A stretch of 64,000 bases of DNA from Arthrobacter sp. 131MFCol6.1 (GTDB taxonomy: Bacteria > Actinomycetota > Actinomycetes > Actinomycetales > Micrococcaceae), in assembly GCF_000374925.1 (NCBI RefSeq), contig NZ_KB895541.1, positions 1,056,122-1,120,121 on the forward strand. Reading direction: 5' to 3'. The notes under the pieces are model-generated. The model had not been told where the DNA came from, made no database searches, and saw nothing but the letters and a program-made list of their open reading frames with translations. Below, piece after piece: positions 51,675-60,071 of this stretch; the first letter of the stretch is position 1, and each line of letters begins with the position of its first letter. The translations under genes and the position numbers were made by a program.

Positions 51675-53225
51675 ATGAGGCAGCACTTCAGAAGGCTCCT
51701 GCGCCGTGCAGCGGTCATCGTCGTGCTGGCCGTGGCCAGCGCCGGCGCAATCAGCGGGACTGCGCAGGCCGCCCCCAGTCACGACAGCCCCCGTTACACG
51801 GCGGGCGCTCCCGGCAGCGGCGACGAGTACTTCCCGTTCGCCGGCAACGGCGGCTACGACGTCCTGAACTACGACCTCGCGCTCCGCTATGCGCCACCGA
51901 CCAATCCCGCGGTGCTCGCAGGCCGCCTCAGCGGGGTCGCGACTGTCACCGTCCGTGCAAAGCAGAACCTGGAGTCGCTCAACTTCGACCTGCGCGGCCT
52001 CGGCGTCACCTCGGTCCAGATCGACGGCAAAACCGCCAAGTGGTCCCAAGTGCAAAACGACGCGAACCGGACCTGGGAACTCACCATCGGGCTGCGGCCG
52101 AAGCTGAAGGCCGGACAGACGACGTCGATCGTGATCGAGTACGGCGGAATCACCGGCCGGCCGCTCGACACGACCGGGGCGCTCTACGGTTGGGTCACCA
52201 CCGCTGACGGCGCCATGGTCGTCAACGAGCCCGAGGGTGCGGCGACCTGGTACCCCGTGAATGACGACCCTGAAGACAAGGCGACCTACACGTTCCGCAT
52301 CACGGTGCCGGCGGGGAAGACGGCTGTGGCGAACGGCCTGCCTGTCGGCAGGCCGGCGACGAAGGCCGGATGGACCACATGGACGTGGAAGGCCTCGGAC
52401 CCGATGGCCAGCTACTTGTCGACGGCGAACATCGGCGACTTTGCCCTGTCCTACGACGTCGGTCCGCACGGGCTGCCCATCATCAACGCGATCGACGCGG
52501 ACGTGACGGGCGCGGCACTGGCCGAGACGAAGGCGTCGCTTGCGTTGCAGCCCAAGATGATCGCATTCCTTGAGGGCCAGTTCGGTCGGTACCCGTTCGA
52601 GGCCTTCGGCGCGATCGTCGACGACGACACGGTCGACTATGCGCTGGAGACGCAGACGCGGCCGGTCTACTCGGAGGTCGCGGACGAATACACGGTGGTG
52701 CACGAACTCGGGCACCAGTGGTTCGGAAACGCGGTGAGCCCGTCCGACTGGCAAGACATCTGGCTGAACGAGGGCTGGGCGACGTACATCGAGTGGCTGT
52801 GGGCCGAGCACCAAGGCACGGCCACGATGCCGGAACAGTTCGGGGACGCGGTGACATACCTCGACGCGAACAACCGCTGGGCGCTCAACATCGCAGACCC
52901 GGGCCGCGACAACTTGTTCGCGGGCCAGGTCTACCTCCGCGGGGCGGCTGCCCTCTACGCGCTGCGCGCTGAGATCGGCGACGCGGCATTCCTCCGCGGC
53001 ACCCGGATGTGGTTGAGCCGCTACAACGACTCGACGGCGACGACGGAAGACTTCGAAGCCGTGATGGAAAAGACCTCGGGCCAGCCGCTCGACGCGTTCT
53101 TTGACGACTGGCTGCGCCAAGGCGACCGCCCGGCGATGCCACAGCAAGCGGTAGCGAAAACTCACGTGATTCCAGGACCGGCCCCGACGCATTCCCACAA
53201 CACGCCAAGGACCACACTCCGGTAG
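51675..53225 (+). CDS. Secreted M1 family metallopeptidase (aminopeptidase N type)
   Basis: The 516-residue product has a signal peptide (about residues 1-32, ending AQA), an N-terminal beta-saddle domain and a thermolysin-like catalytic domain. The zinc motif is HELGH (343-347) with the downstream glutamate at 366 in NEGWATYIEW. The GAMEN exopeptidase motif expected just before is replaced by DYALET (321-326), so substrate recognition may differ. The C-terminal helical domain of full-length enzymes is short or absent. The ATG at 51675 was chosen because the signal peptide starts there. Confidence 0.87.
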   Translation: MRQHFRRLLRRAAVIVVLAVASAGAISGTAQAAPSHDSPRYTAGAPGSGDEYFPFAGNGGYDVLNYDLALRYAPPTNPAVLAGRLSGVATVTVRAKQNLESLNFDLRGLGVTSVQIDGKTAKWSQVQNDANRTWELTIGLRPKLKAGQTTSIVIEYGGITGRPLDTTGALYGWVTTADGAMVVNEPEGAATWYPVNDDPEDKATYTFRITVPAGKTAVANGLPVGRPATKAGWTTWTWKASDPMASYLSTANIGDFALSYDVGPHGLPIINAIDADVTGAALAETKASLALQPKMIAFLEGQFGRYPFEAFGAIVDDDTVDYALETQTRPVYSEVADEYTVVHELGHQWFGNAVSPSDWQDIWLNEGWATYIEWLWAEHQGTATMPEQFGDAVTYLDANNRWALNIADPGRDNLFAGQVYLRGAAALYALRAEIGDAAFLRGTRMWLSRYNDSTATTEDFEAVMEKTSGQPLDAFFDDWLRQGDRPAMPQQAVAKTHVIPGPAPTHSHNTPRTTLR

Positions 53226-53300
53226 CGGAGGGCTCCTGGACGGCCGTGGACACCAGGTGTACCAACCGGAACCCTCGACACCTTGCTGGCTGGTGGAGCC

Positions 53301-54035
53301 TCAGGCGCGCGGGCGCATGAGCGGTGGGTTGAGCACGGCCCGTACTGGCTGACCTGCTGCCTGGCGGGCTGCTTCAGCGAGCCGGAAGAGCGCGGCAGGG
53401 CGGCCGGCGTCCCCTGTCGTCATCCGCCCGGTGTCTTCCAGGAAACCAGGCGTTCCCGTGGCCTTGCGGTGGAAGTTCCGGGGGTCCAGCCGCGTGCCCC
53501 AGACGGCCTCGTACACGGCCCGGAGCTGGGCAATGGTGAACTCGTCTCCGCAGAAGGCCGCCCCCAACGGCGAATATTCGAGCTTTGATTTCGCCCGCTC
53601 CAAGGCGTCGACGAGGATCCGCTCGTGGTCGAACGCGAGCTGCAATTCGCCGTCCAGCACCTGGCTGACCGGGTACCAGGCAGCGTGCTCGGCGTCGCTC
53701 CCGGCGGACAGGACGGGGAAGTTTGGCGCGAGCAGCAGGTGCGCCACCGTGAGTACATCCCCCCGTGGGTCGCGGCCCTTCGGGCCGTAGCTCCCCAGTT
53801 GTTCCAGATGGCCAGGAACCCCCACGACGCCGGTTTCCTCGGTCAGCTCACGGCCCGCCGCCGTCGCCAGGTCCTCCCCCGCCAGCACGAAACCGCCGGG
53901 CAGGGCGAGCCTGCCGCGGAAGGGCTCAATGAGGCGGGTGATGAGCAGGACCTTCAGGACGTCGTCGGTCACGGTGAGGGCGACGACGTCGACGGTCACC
54001 GGGAAGCGCGCGGGCGCCGGGTGGGATTCAGGCAT
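53301..54035 (-). CDS. NrtR-type Nudix transcriptional regulator
   Basis: The 244-residue protein has an N-terminal Nudix domain with an intact Nudix box (GGFVLAGEDLATAAGRELTEETG) and a C-terminal winged-helix domain (LGAAFCGDEFTIAQLRAVYEAVWG, NFHRKATGT). This is the NrtR layout, where ADP-ribose or NAD-derived ligands relieve repression. It is divergent from an SPFH gene and an NAD-kinase-like gene. I start at 54035; an ATG at 54062 would put the start inside the operator. Confidence 0.87.
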   Translation of the reverse strand: MPESHPAPARFPVTVDVVALTVTDDVLKVLLITRLIEPFRGRLALPGGFVLAGEDLATAAGRELTEETGVVGVPGHLEQLGSYGPKGRDPRGDVLTVAHLLLAPNFPVLSAGSDAEHAAWYPVSQVLDGELQLAFDHERILVDALERAKSKLEYSPLGAAFCGDEFTIAQLRAVYEAVWGTRLDPRNFHRKATGTPGFLEDTGRMTTGDAGRPAALFRLAEAARQAAGQPVRAVLNPPLMRPRA

Positions 54036-54052
54036 GAACCCATCGTAGATAT

Positions 54053-54118
54053 TTATCGTCATATTGACAATAAATCGGGCAAGGCCCTACAGTTCAGTTA
54101 TCGTCAAATTGACGAGAA
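54053..54118. promoter_or_regulatory. Two palindromic operators overlapping the SPFH promoter
   Basis: A near palindrome at 54053-54073 (core TCGTCATATTGACAA) and a better one at 54098-54118 (core TCGTCAAATTGACGA, a perfect 7+7 repeat) are centred 45 bp apart. The promoter TTGACA (54064-54069), 18 bases, TACAGT (54088-54093) has its -35 in the first and its start near the second. The divergent NrtR-like gene is the obvious regulator. Confidence 0.7.
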
Positions 54119-54142
54119 CACTGAATGGTTTAGGAGAATCCC

Positions 54143-55204
54143 ATGGCCAGCATCAAGCGCTACCCCTGGATCAGCCACTTCCTGGGCAGCCCCACCGGCT
54201 ATGTCGTCCACCTGCAGAAGGGCGAGGTCAGGCACCAGGGAGTCGGCCAGGCCTTCTGGTTCCGGCCGGCTAACTCAGTGCTCAGCGAGGTTCCCGTGGA
54301 TGATCAGGAACTGCCCACCCTCTTCCACGCCATCACCCGTGACCACCAAGACGTCAGCGTCCAGGCCAACGTGACCTACCGCTTCATCGACCCGGTGGCC
54401 GTCTCCAACCGGCTGGACTTCGGCCTCCAGCCGGCCGGCGCGGCGCCGGCGACCGGGAAGGAGCAGGTGGCCACGATTATCGGCCAGCTGTGCCAGAGCC
54501 ACGCCATTGACCAGATCGCCACCACGACGCTGGCCGAGGCGCTGGAACGCGGAGTCAGCCAGCTCCGCAACGTCCTCACCGAGGCCCTGCGCGCTGACAC
54601 CCGGCTCCTGTCCACCGGCATCGAGATCCTTGGGGTGCAGGTCCTGGCGGTCCGGCCGGAGTCCGACGTCGAACGGGCCCTGCAGACGCCGGTCCGTGAA
54701 CAGCTCCAGGCCGAAGCAGACCGCGCCGTCTACGAACGCCGGGCAGTCGCCGTCGAGCGCGAACGGACCATCTCCGAGAACGAGATGGCGAGCCAGATCG
54801 AACTGGCCACCAGGCGCGAACACCTGGTCGCCCAGGAAGGCGCCAACGCTCGGCGCCAGGCCGAGGAAAAGGCCGCAGCGGGACTCATCGAGGCGGAGGC
54901 TTCGGCCGAACGCAAAGGCATCGGCGCCTCCGCCGAAGCGAACCAGATCCGGCTCGTAGGCCAGGCGGCAGCGGCGCGTGAGGCCGCCACCATGGAGGTC
55001 TACAGCGGCATGGAACAGGCCACTCTGCTGGCTCTGGCCCTGCGCGACGCAGCCGGATCACTGCCCAACATCGGCAACCTCACCATCACGCCAGACCTGC
55101 TCAGCGGGGCACTTGCCGGGCTGTTCAGGGAGCCCGCGGGCGGCGCGGTTCCGGCTGCTGCCGCCGGCGCGGTGGCAAGCACCGCCGGCAGCTTCGAGAA
55201 CTAG
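54143..55204 (+). CDS. SPFH/band 7 domain protein
   Basis: The 353-residue protein has an SPFH domain (about residues 1-190, with VSVQANVTYRFIDPVAV and TGIEILGVQVLAVRPESDV), a long coiled coil (about 190-290, rich in Ala, Arg and Glu) and a Gly/Ala tail. There is no N-terminal membrane helix, unlike flotillins. It may scaffold a complex. GGAGAA precedes the ATG. The NAD-kinase-like gene follows nine bases after the stop, in the same operon and under the same operators. Confidence 0.87.
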   Translation: MASIKRYPWISHFLGSPTGYVVHLQKGEVRHQGVGQAFWFRPANSVLSEVPVDDQELPTLFHAITRDHQDVSVQANVTYRFIDPVAVSNRLDFGLQPAGAAPATGKEQVATIIGQLCQSHAIDQIATTTLAEALERGVSQLRNVLTEALRADTRLLSTGIEILGVQVLAVRPESDVERALQTPVREQLQAEADRAVYERRAVAVERERTISENEMASQIELATRREHLVAQEGANARRQAEEKAAAGLIEAEASAERKGIGASAEANQIRLVGQAAAAREAATMEVYSGMEQATLLALALRDAAGSLPNIGNLTITPDLLSGALAGLFREPAGGAVPAAAAGAVASTAGSFEN

Positions 55205-55213
55205 GCTCCTGAC

Positions 55214-56113
55214 ATGGCAAACCCCCGCCTCGTCATCGTCCACCGGCGGACCGAACTCCAGGAACTCCTGGACCGGCACGCCACCCGCGGCCAGGCCGAA
55301 TTCTTCCTCCGCACCCGCGGCCGCACCCTCCAAGACGTGCAGGAGCGCCACGACCGGCTCAACGCAGCACTGGCGACAGTCCGCGCCGCAGTTCCGGCCG
55401 AATGGCGGCACGCAGAAGTGGAACGCGCGGACCTCAGCAGGTTCCTGCTCACACCGGAGGACGTCATCGCCGTTGTCGGTCAGGACGGGCTTGTGGCCAA
55501 CACGGCGAAGTACCTCAACTCCCAGCCCGTCATCGGGGTCGACCCGGAACCGGAAGCAAACCCAGGCGTCCTGGTTCGACACACACCCAAGGCGGCAGCC
55601 AGGCTCCTGCACGAGGCCGCTGCGGCCGGGACTGCGGAGCGGCTGCAGTGCCAGGAACTCGCGACTGTGACGGCACGGCTCGACGACGGGCAGGAACTCT
55701 CGGGGCTCAACGAGGTTTTCATCGGGCACGCCTCCCACCAGTCGGCCCGGTACCGGCTCACGACCCCGGCGGGCCGGGCCGAGCGCCACTCTTCGTCGGG
55801 ACTGATCGTCTCGACGGGCACGGGCGCCACGGGCTGGTGCGCATCCATCGCCCTCGACCGCGGCGGACGCCCCCTGCCGGCGCCAACAGACCCCCGACTG
55901 GCATGGTTCGTCCGGGAGGCATGGCCCTCCCCCATCACCGGAACCTCCTTGACCGAGGGGGTCCTGGAGGCAGGCGAAACACTCCGAGTCACTGTTGCAT
56001 CCGACCAGCTCGTGGTGTTCGGTGACGGGATGGAAGATGACCGCCTCACCGCATCCTGGGGACAGGAAATCACGGTCCAGTTGGGCGCACGGCCGCTCCG
56101 GCTGGTGGGGTAA
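55214..56113 (+). CDS. NAD kinase-like protein
   Basis: The 299-residue protein has a GGDG-like motif (VVGQDGLVANTAKYL, GQDG in place of GGDG), the LNEVFIG motif and SSGLIVSTGTGATGW (usual STPTGSTAY), all at the expected spacing for NAD kinases (NadK), in a diacylglycerol-kinase-type fold. The glycine-to-glutamine change suggests altered or weaker activity. It is probably not the housekeeping NAD kinase. Together with an NrtR-like regulator and an SPFH gene it forms an NAD-linked module; the substrate may be NAD or another nucleotide. Confidence 0.78.
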   Translation: MANPRLVIVHRRTELQELLDRHATRGQAEFFLRTRGRTLQDVQERHDRLNAALATVRAAVPAEWRHAEVERADLSRFLLTPEDVIAVVGQDGLVANTAKYLNSQPVIGVDPEPEANPGVLVRHTPKAAARLLHEAAAAGTAERLQCQELATVTARLDDGQELSGLNEVFIGHASHQSARYRLTTPAGRAERHSSSGLIVSTGTGATGWCASIALDRGGRPLPAPTDPRLAWFVREAWPSPITGTSLTEGVLEAGETLRVTVASDQLVVFGDGMEDDRLTASWGQEITVQLGARPLRLVG

Positions 56114-56158
56114 GAGCCCCGCTGACGCCCCTTCCCCGACTTCCCCAAGCTGCGCTGC

Positions 56159-57985
56159 CTACCTCCGCGACGCCTTAAGGGCCATCGCGGATCCGCCGCC
56201 GCGCCGCACGGGCTCGGCGGCTGCGACCATGCCGCCATCGGGCAGGAACTCGATGGCGGTCGCGGCGCCGATCTCCGCTGCCGAGGTGAACGCATCCCCC
56301 GACGGCGTGAACTGATGGCCAAAGGGTGCCAACTGGCTGCCGTACTTGGCGATGAACTCCGGCTCGGCCGTGACCTTGGCCGCGTTCCGTTGCGAGGCCC
56401 GCGGTGCCGCGATCGCCTCGGAGATGGTCATGCCCAGGTCCACCCGGTTCAGGATGGTCTGCAGGACGGTGGTGATGATGGTCGATCCGCCGGGCGAGCC
56501 GAGGGCGAGGAACGGTTTGCCCTCCTTGAGGATGATGGTCGGCGACATGGACGAGCGCGGGCGCTTTCCCGGCTCGATCCGGTTCGGGTCGGCCGGGTCG
56601 TAGACGGTCGAGAAGTCGGTCAGCTCGTTGTTGAGCAGGAAGCCGCGGCCGGGGACCACCATGCCGGACCCGCCGGTCTGCTCGATCGTGAGCGTGTAGT
56701 CCACCACGTTCCCCCACTTGTCCGCGACCGTCAGGTTGGTCGTCGAGATGTTCTCCGTGTCCTTCTCGACCGCAGGCGCGACGGCGGCGGCCGGGCACGC
56801 GCCGTCGTACGCGGACACGTCCCCCGGCGCAACAGGCTTCGCTGCCGCGTGCAGCGGGTCGATCCGGCAGGCGCGCTCCTTGCCGAACAGAGGGTCAGTG
56901 AGCGCGGCGGTGGGGACGCCTACAAACGCGGGGTCACCCACGTACTTGCCACGGTCCGCGAAGGCAAGCGCGCTGGCCTCGAGGTAGTGATGTAGGGCGC
57001 CCGGAGTGGACATCCCGGACAGGTTGGAGGGGTCCAGGATGTTCAGCGCCTCGCCCACCGTGGTGCCGCCGCTGCTGGAGGGCGCCATGCCGTAGACGTC
57101 CAGGTCGCGGTAGTCCACGTGCGTGGGCGCCTGGTCAAGGGCGCGGTATGCGGCGAGATCCGCGGTCGTCAGGTGGCCTGCCGGAACGGGCAGTTTTGTT
57201 TTAGAAGTCTTAGGTGGAGCCTGCACCGTGGCCGCGATCTCGGCGGCAAGCGGTCCGCTGTAGAAGCCGCTGGTGCCCTTTTTCGCGAGGAGCCGGTATG
57301 TCTCGGCGAGGTCGTGGTTTTGGAAGACACTGCCGACGGCGGGGGCGTCGCCGCCCGGGAGGTAGAGGCTGCTGGTCGAGGTAAAGGCCTCGAACCGGGC
57401 CTTGTTGTCGAGGGTCTGCTGGCGGAACGTCTTGTCGACCACGAACCCGCGGGTCGCCACGTTGATGGCAGGTTTCAGGGCCTCGCCGAGACTCAACGTG
57501 CCCCACCGGTCCAGGGCACGCGCCCACGTGGCCGGGGTGCCCGGGACGCCAACGGAGACGCCGCTTGTGACGAGCTCGGGAGTGAAGTTGTACGGCTTGC
57601 CGGTCGCCGGGTCGATGAACGCGTCGTGCGGCATGCCTGCCGGCGCGGTCTCGCGGCCATCGATCGTGCCTACCTTGCCGGTCTTCGCGTCGTAGAACAC
57701 GAAGTAGCCCCCGCCGCCGATTCCGGCACTGTAGGGCTCAGTCACACCAAGGGTCGCGGCTGCGGCGACGGCGGCGTCCGCCGCGTTGCCGCCCTTGCGG
57801 AGGACCTCGATCGCCGCAGCGGACGCCTCCGGGTCCACGGTGCTCACCGCACCGCCGTACCCAGTGGCGGTTGACGTCTTTGCGATTTCCCGCGGATCGG
57901 CCTGCGCAGGGGCGAGGACGCCGCCCGTCACGCTCAATGCCAGGGCCGCCGTGACAGCCACCAGCCCTCGTGTCATATGTGCCAT
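56159..57985 (-). CDS. ggt: Gamma-glutamyltransferase
   Basis: The 608-residue secreted proenzyme has a signal peptide (about residues 1-29), a large subunit, and the autocleavage site T in ENISTTNLTVADKWGN that forms the small subunit with its N-terminal threonine nucleophile. GGSGMVVPGRGFLLNN and RPRSSMSPTIIL and SPGGSTI are present. It transfers or hydrolyses gamma-glutamyl groups outside the cytoplasm. The ATG at 57985 is chosen from GGGAGC five bases upstream; another ATG lies three codons downstream. Confidence 0.93.
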   Translation of the reverse strand: MAHMTRGLVAVTAALALSVTGGVLAPAQADPREIAKTSTATGYGGAVSTVDPEASAAAIEVLRKGGNAADAAVAAAATLGVTEPYSAGIGGGGYFVFYDAKTGKVGTIDGRETAPAGMPHDAFIDPATGKPYNFTPELVTSGVSVGVPGTPATWARALDRWGTLSLGEALKPAINVATRGFVVDKTFRQQTLDNKARFEAFTSTSSLYLPGGDAPAVGSVFQNHDLAETYRLLAKKGTSGFYSGPLAAEIAATVQAPPKTSKTKLPVPAGHLTTADLAAYRALDQAPTHVDYRDLDVYGMAPSSSGGTTVGEALNILDPSNLSGMSTPGALHHYLEASALAFADRGKYVGDPAFVGVPTAALTDPLFGKERACRIDPLHAAAKPVAPGDVSAYDGACPAAAVAPAVEKDTENISTTNLTVADKWGNVVDYTLTIEQTGGSGMVVPGRGFLLNNELTDFSTVYDPADPNRIEPGKRPRSSMSPTIILKEGKPFLALGSPGGSTIITTVLQTILNRVDLGMTISEAIAAPRASQRNAAKVTAEPEFIAKYGSQLAPFGHQFTPSGDAFTSAAEIGAATAIEFLPDGGMVAAAEPVRRGGGSAMALKASRR

Positions 57986-58322: not shown

Positions 58323-60071
58323 ATGGATCGCGGGACAGCGCGGGGTGCGGAGATGTGGAGTGCGGAGATGTGGAGTGCGGAGAGCGGTGCGGCCGTGGAG
58401 GCCGTCGCCGAGTCCGCTGCCGTGCTTGCTGCCTTGGCCGGAGCGGCCGCTGACGACGCCGATCCGCCTGCCGACCCGCTGGAAGCCGCCGATCCGTTGC
58501 GGCGGCTGGCGGACGGGTGCCTCGACGGGCTCGCCGAGGTGGCCCGGCTGGAGGCCCGGACCGCGGCACTGAAGGTCCAGCTGGCCGCCGACTACGCGCA
58601 GGCGGCCAGGTTTTTGGCGCCGCCGGCGCCGTCCGCGCGGGACCGTGCCGTTCAGGAGATGGCCCTGGTGGCCGAGGTCGCGTGTGTCCTGACCGTCAGC
58701 GAACGCAGCGCCGGCGCCCTGCTGGCTGAGTCCCGGGCCCTGACGTCGGCGCTGCCGCTGACCCTGGCCGCGCTGCGGGCCGGCACGATCTCCTGGGCCC
58801 ACGCCCGGATCCTTGTGGAGGAAACCGCCGGCCTGGACCGGGCCGGCGCGGCCGGGCTCGAAGCGCATTTCCTGGACCCCGCCGCACCGAACGCGGCCCG
58901 CGGCTGCCCGGCCGGGGACCTCGTTCCGGCCCGGTTCCGGGCCAAGGCACGCACCTGGCGCGAACGTCACCACCCGGCCAGCATCGAGACACGGCACGCC
59001 ACGAGCGCCGCGGACCGGCGGGTCGAGTTCGTCCCGGACCGGGACGGCATGGCCTGGCTCTCGGCGCACCTTCCGGCCGACACCGCCGCCGGGATCTGGG
59101 AACGGACCACCGCCGCGGCCCGCGCCCTGCAGGGCCCGGACGAGGCCCGGACCCTGGCCCAGCTCCGTGCCGACATCACCGCCACCTGGCTCCTCACCAC
59201 CGGCACCCAAAGCACCGGAATTGACGGCGGAACGGCCAACCGCGGCACCGGGACCGGGACCACCGGCGGCATGGCTGCGGGGGCGGGAGCGGGTGCGGGC
59301 TTGGCAGGGGGTGGTGTTCCGTCGCCGCGGGCGCAGGTCCTGGTCACCGTCCCGGTCCTGTCCCTGCTGGGCGCCACGGACGAACCGGCCGTGCTGGACG
59401 GGTACGGTCCGATCCCGCCGTCGATGGCCCGCCGCCTCCTCATAGACGGCGGCGGCTCCTTCCACCGGGTCCTGACCGACCCCCGGGACGGTGCCCCGCT
59501 GGAAATCGGCCGGACCAGCTACCGCCTCACGACAGCCCAGCGCCAGTGGCTCCGGCTCCGCGACGGCAGGTGCCCCTTCCCCGGCTGCGGCAACCACTCC
59601 CTGGACAACGAAGCAGACCATATTCTGGCCTGGGCCGACGGCGGCACCACCGGCATCACCAACCTCGGCCAGCCCTGCCCCAAACACCACCGCCTCAAAC
59701 ACGCCTCCGCCTGGACACCGGCCGGGGCCAGCAAGGACCACCCGCCGGGCTGGACCTCCCCGGCCGGGCGGCACTACCCCAGCGAACACCAGGACTGGGA
59801 ACCACCCCGCTGGCCCGAGGACTGGCTGCCCCACATCCCAGCCACGGACACACACCCGAAACCAGGCCACGACCCGGACCTGCCCGAGGATCCGTACCCG
59901 GCCCCGCCCGAGGATCCGGAGCCAGGCCTGCTCGAGGATGCGGACCCGGGCCTGCCGGAGGATGCGGATTCGGACCTGCCCCCGGACCCCTTCCCGGACT
60001 GGCACCTATTCACCGCCGGGCACCCACTGCCCGATCCAGTGCCGGAATACCGCTTGCTCCAATCCATCTGA
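58323..60071 (+). CDS. DUF222 / HNH endonuclease family protein (13E12-repeat type)
   Basis: The 582-residue protein has a DUF222 domain (about 55-250) and a C-terminal HNH motif with zinc-type cysteines (DGRCPFPGCGNHSLDNEADHILAWADGGTTGITNL, then PCPKHHRLKH). A Pro/Asp/Glu-rich tail has degenerate P-x-D repeats (PPEDPEPGLLEDADPGLPED). The N-terminus contains AEMWSAEMWSAE, encoded by a short tandem repeat near 58350. Such genes are common in actinobacteria and behave as dispersed repeats; the biological role is unclear. The ATG has only a weak ribosome site. Confidence 0.85.
   Translation: MDRGTARGAEMWSAEMWSAESGAAVEAVAESAAVLAALAGAAADDADPPADPLEAADPLRRLADGCLDGLAEVARLEARTAALKVQLAADYAQAARFLAPPAPSARDRAVQEMALVAEVACVLTVSERSAGALLAESRALTSALPLTLAALRAGTISWAHARILVEETAGLDRAGAAGLEAHFLDPAAPNAARGCPAGDLVPARFRAKARTWRERHHPASIETRHATSAADRRVEFVPDRDGMAWLSAHLPADTAAGIWERTTAAARALQGPDEARTLAQLRADITATWLLTTGTQSTGIDGGTANRGTGTGTTGGMAAGAGAGAGLAGGGVPSPRAQVLVTVPVLSLLGATDEPAVLDGYGPIPPSMARRLLIDGGGSFHRVLTDPRDGAPLEIGRTSYRLTTAQRQWLRLRDGRCPFPGCGNHSLDNEADHILAWADGGTTGITNLGQPCPKHHRLKHASAWTPAGASKDHPPGWTSPAGRHYPSEHQDWEPPRWPEDWLPHIPATDTHPKPGHDPDLPEDPYPAPPEDPEPGLLEDADPGLPEDADSDLPPDPFPDWHLFTAGHPLPDPVPEYRLLQSI

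Follow-up and report, generated by a model that had tools for sequence, protein, structure and literature searches.

A conserved set of an NrtR-type regulator, a predicted soluble SPFH protein and an NADK2-like protein: a candidate auto-regulated NAD-metabolite module in Arthrobacter and other bacteria

The stretch of DNA analysed here (64,000 nucleotides of Arthrobacter sp. 131MFCol6.1, contig NZ_KB895541.1, positions 1,056,122 to 1,120,121; hereafter the window) contains, at positions 53,301 to 56,113, three neighbouring genes whose combination raises a question: why should a regulator of the NrtR type stand divergently beside a gene for an SPFH protein and a gene for a protein with the fold of an NAD kinase? 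SPFH proteins are usually membrane organisers. The answer that we favour, at about even confidence, is that the set constitutes an auto-regulated NAD-metabolite module consisting of an NrtR switch, a soluble SPFH oligomer and a kinase whose substrate would be NAD(H) or a closely related molecule. An earlier note on this DNA, made from the sequence alone, knew of no description of such a set, and none linking NrtR, SPFH and NAD kinase was found in the literature searched, which covered mostly open-access texts, so that an earlier mention is possible. The three genes at the place given in the note, the nine bases between the SPFH and kinase-like genes, the GQDG motif, both palindromes and the promoter were all recovered by reading the sequence and by Pfam analysis. 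The features are as follows:

53301-54062, minus strand: open reading frame of the NrtR-type regulator gene (Nudix domain plus winged helix, by PF21906 and PF00293), with 53301..54035 as the probable coding region
54053..54073: operator 1, TTATCGTCATATTGACAATAA, overlapping the -35 element of the SPFH promoter
54065..54094, plus strand: sigma-70-like promoter TTGACA-N18-TACAGT of the SPFH-kinase operon, as read in the sequence
54098..54118: operator 2, TTATCGTCAAATTGACGAGAA, directly 3' of the -10 element
54143..55204, plus strand: soluble SPFH (Band 7) gene, by Pfam, AlphaFold model, fold matches and hydropathy
55214..56113, plus strand: NADK2-like kinase-fold gene with GQDGLVAN signature, by AlphaFold model, NADK2 fold match and motif conservation

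The two palindromes had been said to straddle the promoter, which holds for operator 2, lying downstream of the -10 element, and fails for palindrome 1, which overlaps the -35 hexamer (54065-54070). M10 (ATG at 54035) is the probable start of the regulator, because the longer start falls inside palindrome 1 and because in-frame stops are found 5' of M10 in several relatives (e.g. L022, L024 and L026). No Rfam match was obtained in window positions 53000-56400.

The view of the three genes as one unit is borne out by their conserved linkage, both in the phylum and beyond it. A scan of genome contigs gave at least 576 encoding stretches, the best 80 of which were used (79 titled Actinomycetota and one, L030, titled Sporosarcina); these loci were fetched via the peptides GQDGLVAN and TGWCASIA, and the conservation of both is thus partly selected for. 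SPFH lies upstream of the kinase-like gene at all 80 loci (stop-interrupted in L021 and cut at the contig end in L062), with a gap of less than 80 bases at 78 and a four-base overlap at 44, the starts being chosen by rule of thumb, while a divergent NrtR gene is present at 63. The genera represented include Arthrobacter relatives, Actinoplanes, Glycomyces, Kribbella, Mycolicibacterium and Streptomyces, up to Acidimicrobiia bins. Additionally, when 396 genomes from the phylum were searched with a profile free of signature-motif seeding, 39 matches were obtained, 13 of them strong (12 at E ≤ 1e-109, own genome included, and one divergent, broken copy at 1.9e-28, L113 of genome G406). An SPFH gene adjoins all 13, and NrtR lies within the short flank in five; GQDGLVAN is present in 11 and GPDGLVAN in one, no motif being readable in L113. 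Of the 26 weaker matches (E about 1e-7 or weaker), 17 were fetched; these have neither SPFH nor NrtR within approximately 1.5 kb and are read as ordinary NAD kinases. Both this search and the plasmid relatives identified by tblastn are free of the peptide selection, and they agree with the conservation of the signature.

Matches by tblastn were obtained in 64 records of a plasmid collection. The NUDIX-SPFH-kinase set was recognised by annotation in Methylomonas, Rhizobium etli, Providencia and Moraxella; a domain scan confirmed the NrtR winged helix in the first three, the Moraxella NUDIX protein being assigned to the set by annotation alone. Cupriavidus and Proteus carry the full set by tblastn, while Roseomonas and Treponema (a spirochaete) carry the SPFH-kinase pair, with no NrtR detected beside the Roseomonas pair and a NUDIX gene about 4 kb upstream of the Treponema pair. 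E. coli gave no DNA-level match to the Providencia pair, divergent copies being possible. In the records the genes are annotated as NUDIX protein, SPFH protein and 'sugar kinase' or hypothetical protein, with PpnK-type ATP-NAD kinase in a few. Within the host family, 11 of 149 genomes carry the kinase-like gene, in G050 as a broken remnant, and in the nine other family relatives it is accompanied by SPFH and NrtR in the same arrangement as in the window. Among eight genomes of the host genus, SPFH is present in exactly the three that carry the kinase gene, and four of the five non-carriers retain a gamma-glutamyltransferase gene that flanks the set (78-85% identity), the fifth giving a distant match only. 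Crude calling of open reading frames identified no fourth gene of the set: the largest neighbour cluster covers 13 of the 80 loci on mixed strands, and clusters that keep position and strand cover at most five loci each, in related genera. One Streptomyces plasmid has a von Willebrand-factor-A gene upstream of the pair; this gene was not found at the 25 other loci tested. In our reading the set is a mobile module with a role in metabolism or stress.

An operator with the consensus TTATCGTCA-N3-TGACGATAA is shared across the phylum. With a match defined as at least 13 of 18 positions and a search pattern requiring TGAC, 59 of 63 intergenic regions contain two operators, three contain one and one contains three, as compared with 0.13 of 63 regions having at least one operator in the shuffled control. 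Where two or more sites are present (60 regions), they are spaced by 34 bp (41 regions), 33 bp (six), 45 bp (eight), 44 bp (three), 36 bp (one) or 51 bp (one); the 33-34 and 44-45 bp classes, which cover 58 of the 60 and lie approximately one helical turn apart, would fit dimers bound on one face of the DNA. The upstream operator carries TTGAC in all 60 of these loci, only the first T being independent of the search pattern. In the own genome, the two window operators alone lie within one mismatch of the consensus, and three further sites lie at three mismatches. Seventeen loci lack NrtR, and 11 of the 16 that could be tested retain an operator upstream of SPFH. Furthermore, seven of seven genomes studied from genus g39 (called streptomycete-like because, for the kinase, they share 76-83% protein identity with a Streptomyces locus) have the operator at SPFH together with an unlinked nrtR gene that has an intact Nudix box and its own operator; these seven were picked for having the kinase gene, and at least one g39 genome (G318) is without it. 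Outside the phylum, the intergenic regions of Providencia, Moraxella and Proteus contain the GTC-N5-GAC core of this operator three times, the first two sites being 33-35 bp apart. As a separate observation, three of the seven streptomycete-like genomes have an operator-like site (ATATCGTC-N4-TGACGATAT or close; L216:4268, L217:4211 and L218:4187) beside a gene for a protein of 250-260 aa with no Pfam match, two of these proteins being 64% identical and the third distant; this gene is a possible further member of the regulon.

The regulator matches PF21906 (NrtR_WHD, 57.2 bits; cut-off 27) and PF00293 (NUDIX, 57.5 bits; cut-off 21.1). Against the NCBIfam equivalog model for the ADPR-responsive repressor (NF050029) it reached 111.9 bits where the cut-off is 400, and it is therefore filed as an NrtR-type protein and not as that equivalog; the nad-linked paralogue of the same genome likewise remains below the cut-off (117.7 bits). 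Its Nudix box, GGFVLAGEDLATAAGRELTEETGV, is intact, and the Glu, Arg-Glu and Glu-Glu of the box are invariant in all 64 NrtRs of the 80-locus set and the window. In MsNrtR of M. smegmatis, by contrast, the Nudix motif is less conserved and hydrolase activity was reported as undetected, and ADP-ribose releases the protein from DNA (PMC6800001). The two systems are alike in having a Nudix plus winged-helix regulator, divergent from its operon, with palindromic operators in between; they differ in target (the SPFH-kinase operon here, nadABC there) and in operator (TTATCGTCA-N3-TGACGATAA here, GTTTTCGA-N7-TCGAAAAC there). In the second NrtR of the own genome (contig 13; L138:7383-13423, G000:C13) the Nudix box is degenerate; its gene is followed by nadA, a nadB-like gene (L-aspartate-oxidase domains), nadC and a gene of the aminotransferase-V type. 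Its palindrome, TTATAGTCA-N3-TGACTAGAA (other strand), shows three differences from the operator consensus and is located within the first codons of the listed open reading frame, 5' of a later ATG. The own genome thus appears to control NAD synthesis apart from the SPFH-kinase module.

The SPFH protein matches PF01145 (Band_7, 57.7 bits; cut-off 23.6), and its AlphaFold model (predicted local distance difference test, pLDDT, 84.8) consists of an SPFH domain (residues ~1-173) followed by a single long helix (174-289). The claim that it lacks a membrane helix stands: hydropathy predicted no transmembrane helix in any of 78 SPFH proteins, short membrane-touching segments being possible, and the highest 19-residue hydropathy among the 78 was 1.65, as against 2.57-3.87 in the three other SPFH frames of the genome. 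A C-terminal TPDL peptide (residues 316-319 in the window protein) is conserved as [TS]PD in all 84 SPFH relatives, of which 78 come from the loci and six from plasmid records and which include the distant proteins of Pseudomonadota and Treponema; the next residue, read from the tails, is L, M, F or T in 57 and V, I or A in 27. None of the three other SPFH proteins encoded in the own genome shows the pattern [TS]PD[LMFT]. The peptide, which sits in a lower-confidence part of the model, might be a partner-binding tail. Fold comparison matched prohibitin, erlin, HflK/C, stomatin and flotillin (Z ~12-14) and the major vault protein (Z 11-12.5); the nearest relative is left unnamed because the scores fall off gradually and the root mean square deviation (rmsd) is inflated by the long helix. 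The membrane SPFH proteins likewise have an SPFH domain followed by a long helix, whereas the window protein has no predicted anchor, ends in [TS]PD and has a kinase-fold partner. The major vault protein, a soluble SPFH-containing cage, is comparable at the level of the predicted model; it is much larger, has no demonstrated sequence relation and ranks below the membrane SPFH proteins. The vault shoulder is SPFH-like. It is reported to bind NAD+, ADP and ADP-ribose, and the vault to contain NAD-consuming enzymes (PMC13174449).

The AlphaFold model of the kinase-like protein (pLDDT 94.5) has human mitochondrial NADK2 as its nearest fold (7r4l, Z 24.9, rmsd 3.0, 280 residues aligned (VIA)), other NAD kinases following at Z ~20-22.5, and the two sequences match at E 5.1e-7. 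The SSG and TGTG-x-x-x-W motifs align with NADK2 (7r4l, 7r4j, 7n29), and the region II changes of Asp to Ser and Tyr to Trp are common to both; the differences are GQDGL in place of GGDGT, an identity of ~21%, and the bacterial setting in an operon with SPFH. In an alignment of 86 kinases (80 loci, the window and five from plasmids), Gly89, Asp91-Asn96, Asn166, Ser195, Gly204, Thr206-Trp208, Arg234-Glu235, Asp271-Gly272 and Asp276 are invariant and residue 167 is Glu or Asp. In our reading of the alignments, Asp91, Asn166, Glu167, Thr206 and Trp208 correspond to Asp85, Asn159, Glu160, Thr200 and Tyr202 of M. tuberculosis Ppnk, which are reported to be vital (PMC8553519). The fold, the NE/D motif and the region II Thr and aromatic residue of NAD kinases (Asn166, Glu/Asp167, Thr206, Trp208) are hence present, and GGDG is absent: its second glycine is Gln in 84 of the 86 sequences (GQDG) and Pro in two (GPDG), the next residue always being Leu. 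The earlier note had called the protein degenerate, a description that we abandon since the catalytic Asp is invariant and GQDGLVAN is a conserved family signature. That it is separate from the housekeeping NadK was upheld, the latter being encoded at G000:C1:4845 with GGDG; a nadK1/nadK2 duplication is described in Actinobacteria (PMC6675116). The protein most likely works like an NAD kinase.

In the module that we favour, NrtR would bind the two helically phased operators covering the shared promoter region and repress both itself and the SPFH-kinase operon, until a small molecule signalling NAD turnover releases it, ADP-ribose being the reported ligand of another NrtR. The actinobacterial NrtR, with its intact Nudix box, may then hydrolyse its own signal and so reset the switch, a prediction specific to this branch. 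The anchorless SPFH protein would assemble as a soluble ring or cage and hold the co-translated NADK2-like kinase, perhaps via the conserved C-terminal peptide, and the kinase would phosphorylate NAD(H) or an adenine dinucleotide close to it and so supply NADP(H) locally or conditionally, apart from the housekeeping NadK. The basis of this proposal is comparative sequence analysis and prediction, namely linkage, operator architecture, fold, residue conservation and the absence of a predicted membrane helix, from which we infer repression, ligand, hydrolysis, assembly, complex and substrate. If it is correct, there are bacteria in which an SPFH scaffold is coupled to a nucleotide kinase, with control of the NAD type over both. 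The unit is self-contained and occurs in both Actinomycetota and Pseudomonadota, a spirochaete also having the SPFH-kinase pair. It would provide a small, genetically tractable system in which to address the roles of soluble SPFH assemblies and NADK2-like enzymes, the same question being open for the vault. A bolder version, which we regard as doubtful, is that of a soluble, vault-like SPFH cage or ring dedicated to NAD, housing the NADK2-type kinase and switched on by NAD breakdown; NADP synthesis and the products of NAD breakdown would then be handled inside a protein compartment, and such a particle, if real, would be a functional bacterial counterpart of the eukaryotic vault.

Several observations weigh against the favoured module. 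The kinase-like protein has no Pfam match above cut-off and no match to PF01513 at E ≤ 1, and NCBIfam NAD-kinase models matched it weakly, all far below their cut-offs; in place of GGDG, said to occur in all NAD kinases (PMC8553519), it has GQDGL, and substrate or donor may differ accordingly; on these two grounds (PF01513 and GGDG) the protein is not filed as an NAD kinase. The Nudix box is degenerate (RKLKEK and similar) in four NrtRs that belong to the set in Pseudomonadota, for which reason Nudix hydrolysis as the mechanism in all carriers was rejected. The operator is absent at five of the 16 testable NrtR-less loci (L047, L063, L070, L081 and L098) and at L104, and its core was not recognised in Methylomonas, Rhizobium and Cupriavidus. 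No SPFH-kinase fusion was seen, the longest SPFH frame being 398 aa. Finally, the correlation between the pairwise distances of the three proteins, which speaks for the module (r 0.93-0.94 over 67 sets), is lower (0.80-0.88) when the 63 actinobacterial sets are taken by themselves, and common descent would be enough to produce it.

The altered glycine-rich motif also lends itself to other explanations. The GQDGLVAN loop might suit 2'-phosphorylation of ADP-ribose or another NAD-derived nucleotide, in which case the module would mark or detoxify NAD breakdown products instead of making NADP; with Gln or Pro and then Leu throughout the family, a regulator type reported to respond to ADP-ribose (PMC6800001) and plain NADP supply already covered by the housekeeping NadK, this is a credible if unlikely option, set against which are the retention of the remaining NADK2-like site and the variability of the residue after GGDG among NAD kinases, GGDGL included (PMC8553519). 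The same motif change, taken with the tight pairing with SPFH, could instead mark a non-catalytic nucleotide sensor controlling the assembly of SPFH or its bound clients. We consider this rather improbable, as the invariant catalytic Asp (86/86) and the conserved Asn, Glu/Asp, Thr and aromatic residue would be needless in a pseudo-enzyme.

The two remaining explanations place the function outside NAD metabolism. Since SPFH proteins are described as membrane organisers (PMC13086221) and Band-7 proteins are found in PSP operons (PMC11237479), the set could serve envelope or membrane stress with the kinase incidental; we judge this very remote indeed, given an SPFH protein with no membrane helix by hydropathy, a kinase at every locus fetched and a regulator of NAD type. 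An anti-phage role, also raised in the earlier note, draws on the patchy distribution in the host family, the plasmid records, the variable neighbours and a neighbour scan in which 82 PADLOC models were matched near the loci versus nine at a distance. That scan covered 138 of 284 near and 145 of 208 distant open reading frames and counted models rather than distinct proteins; among the 25 near models listed (of the 82), none exceeded two of 138 proteins and most are PD-T4-6 and GajB versions that match one protein each, while one distant model reached four of 145. Neighbour enrichment is thus not clear, the best PADLOC E value for the three proteins is 0.0075, no relatives were found in phage records or in an IMG/VR pattern scan, and regulator and kinase point to metabolism; on this weak test, the defence idea finds no backing and appears highly improbable.

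A number of individual copies differ from the general pattern. In G050 (L019/L020) the kinase-like remnant is decayed, and neither SPFH nor NrtR is present in the 3.2-3.4 kb fetched, while L021 (Pseudarthrobacter albicanus) combines an SPFH gene containing an in-frame stop with a second, partial kinase match. The set of L030, titled Sporosarcina (Bacillota), is 75-81% identical to that of the window and has the same operators, and a mislabelled or contaminated assembly seems more likely here than transfer. In the window itself, a DUF222 gene lies near the set (58323-60071), with a weak, sub-threshold HNH match. On the Methylomonas plasmid, the gene 3' of the set (L139:8133-9197) encodes a protein of 354 aa that carries the annotation NUDIX hydrolase and has no Pfam match. 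Small Pasteurellaceae plasmids match part of the kinase gene, and a Moraxella plasmid (L146:4094-8841) has the set next to tet(H)/tetR(H), a Proteus record (L147:4130-8828) next to tet(J).

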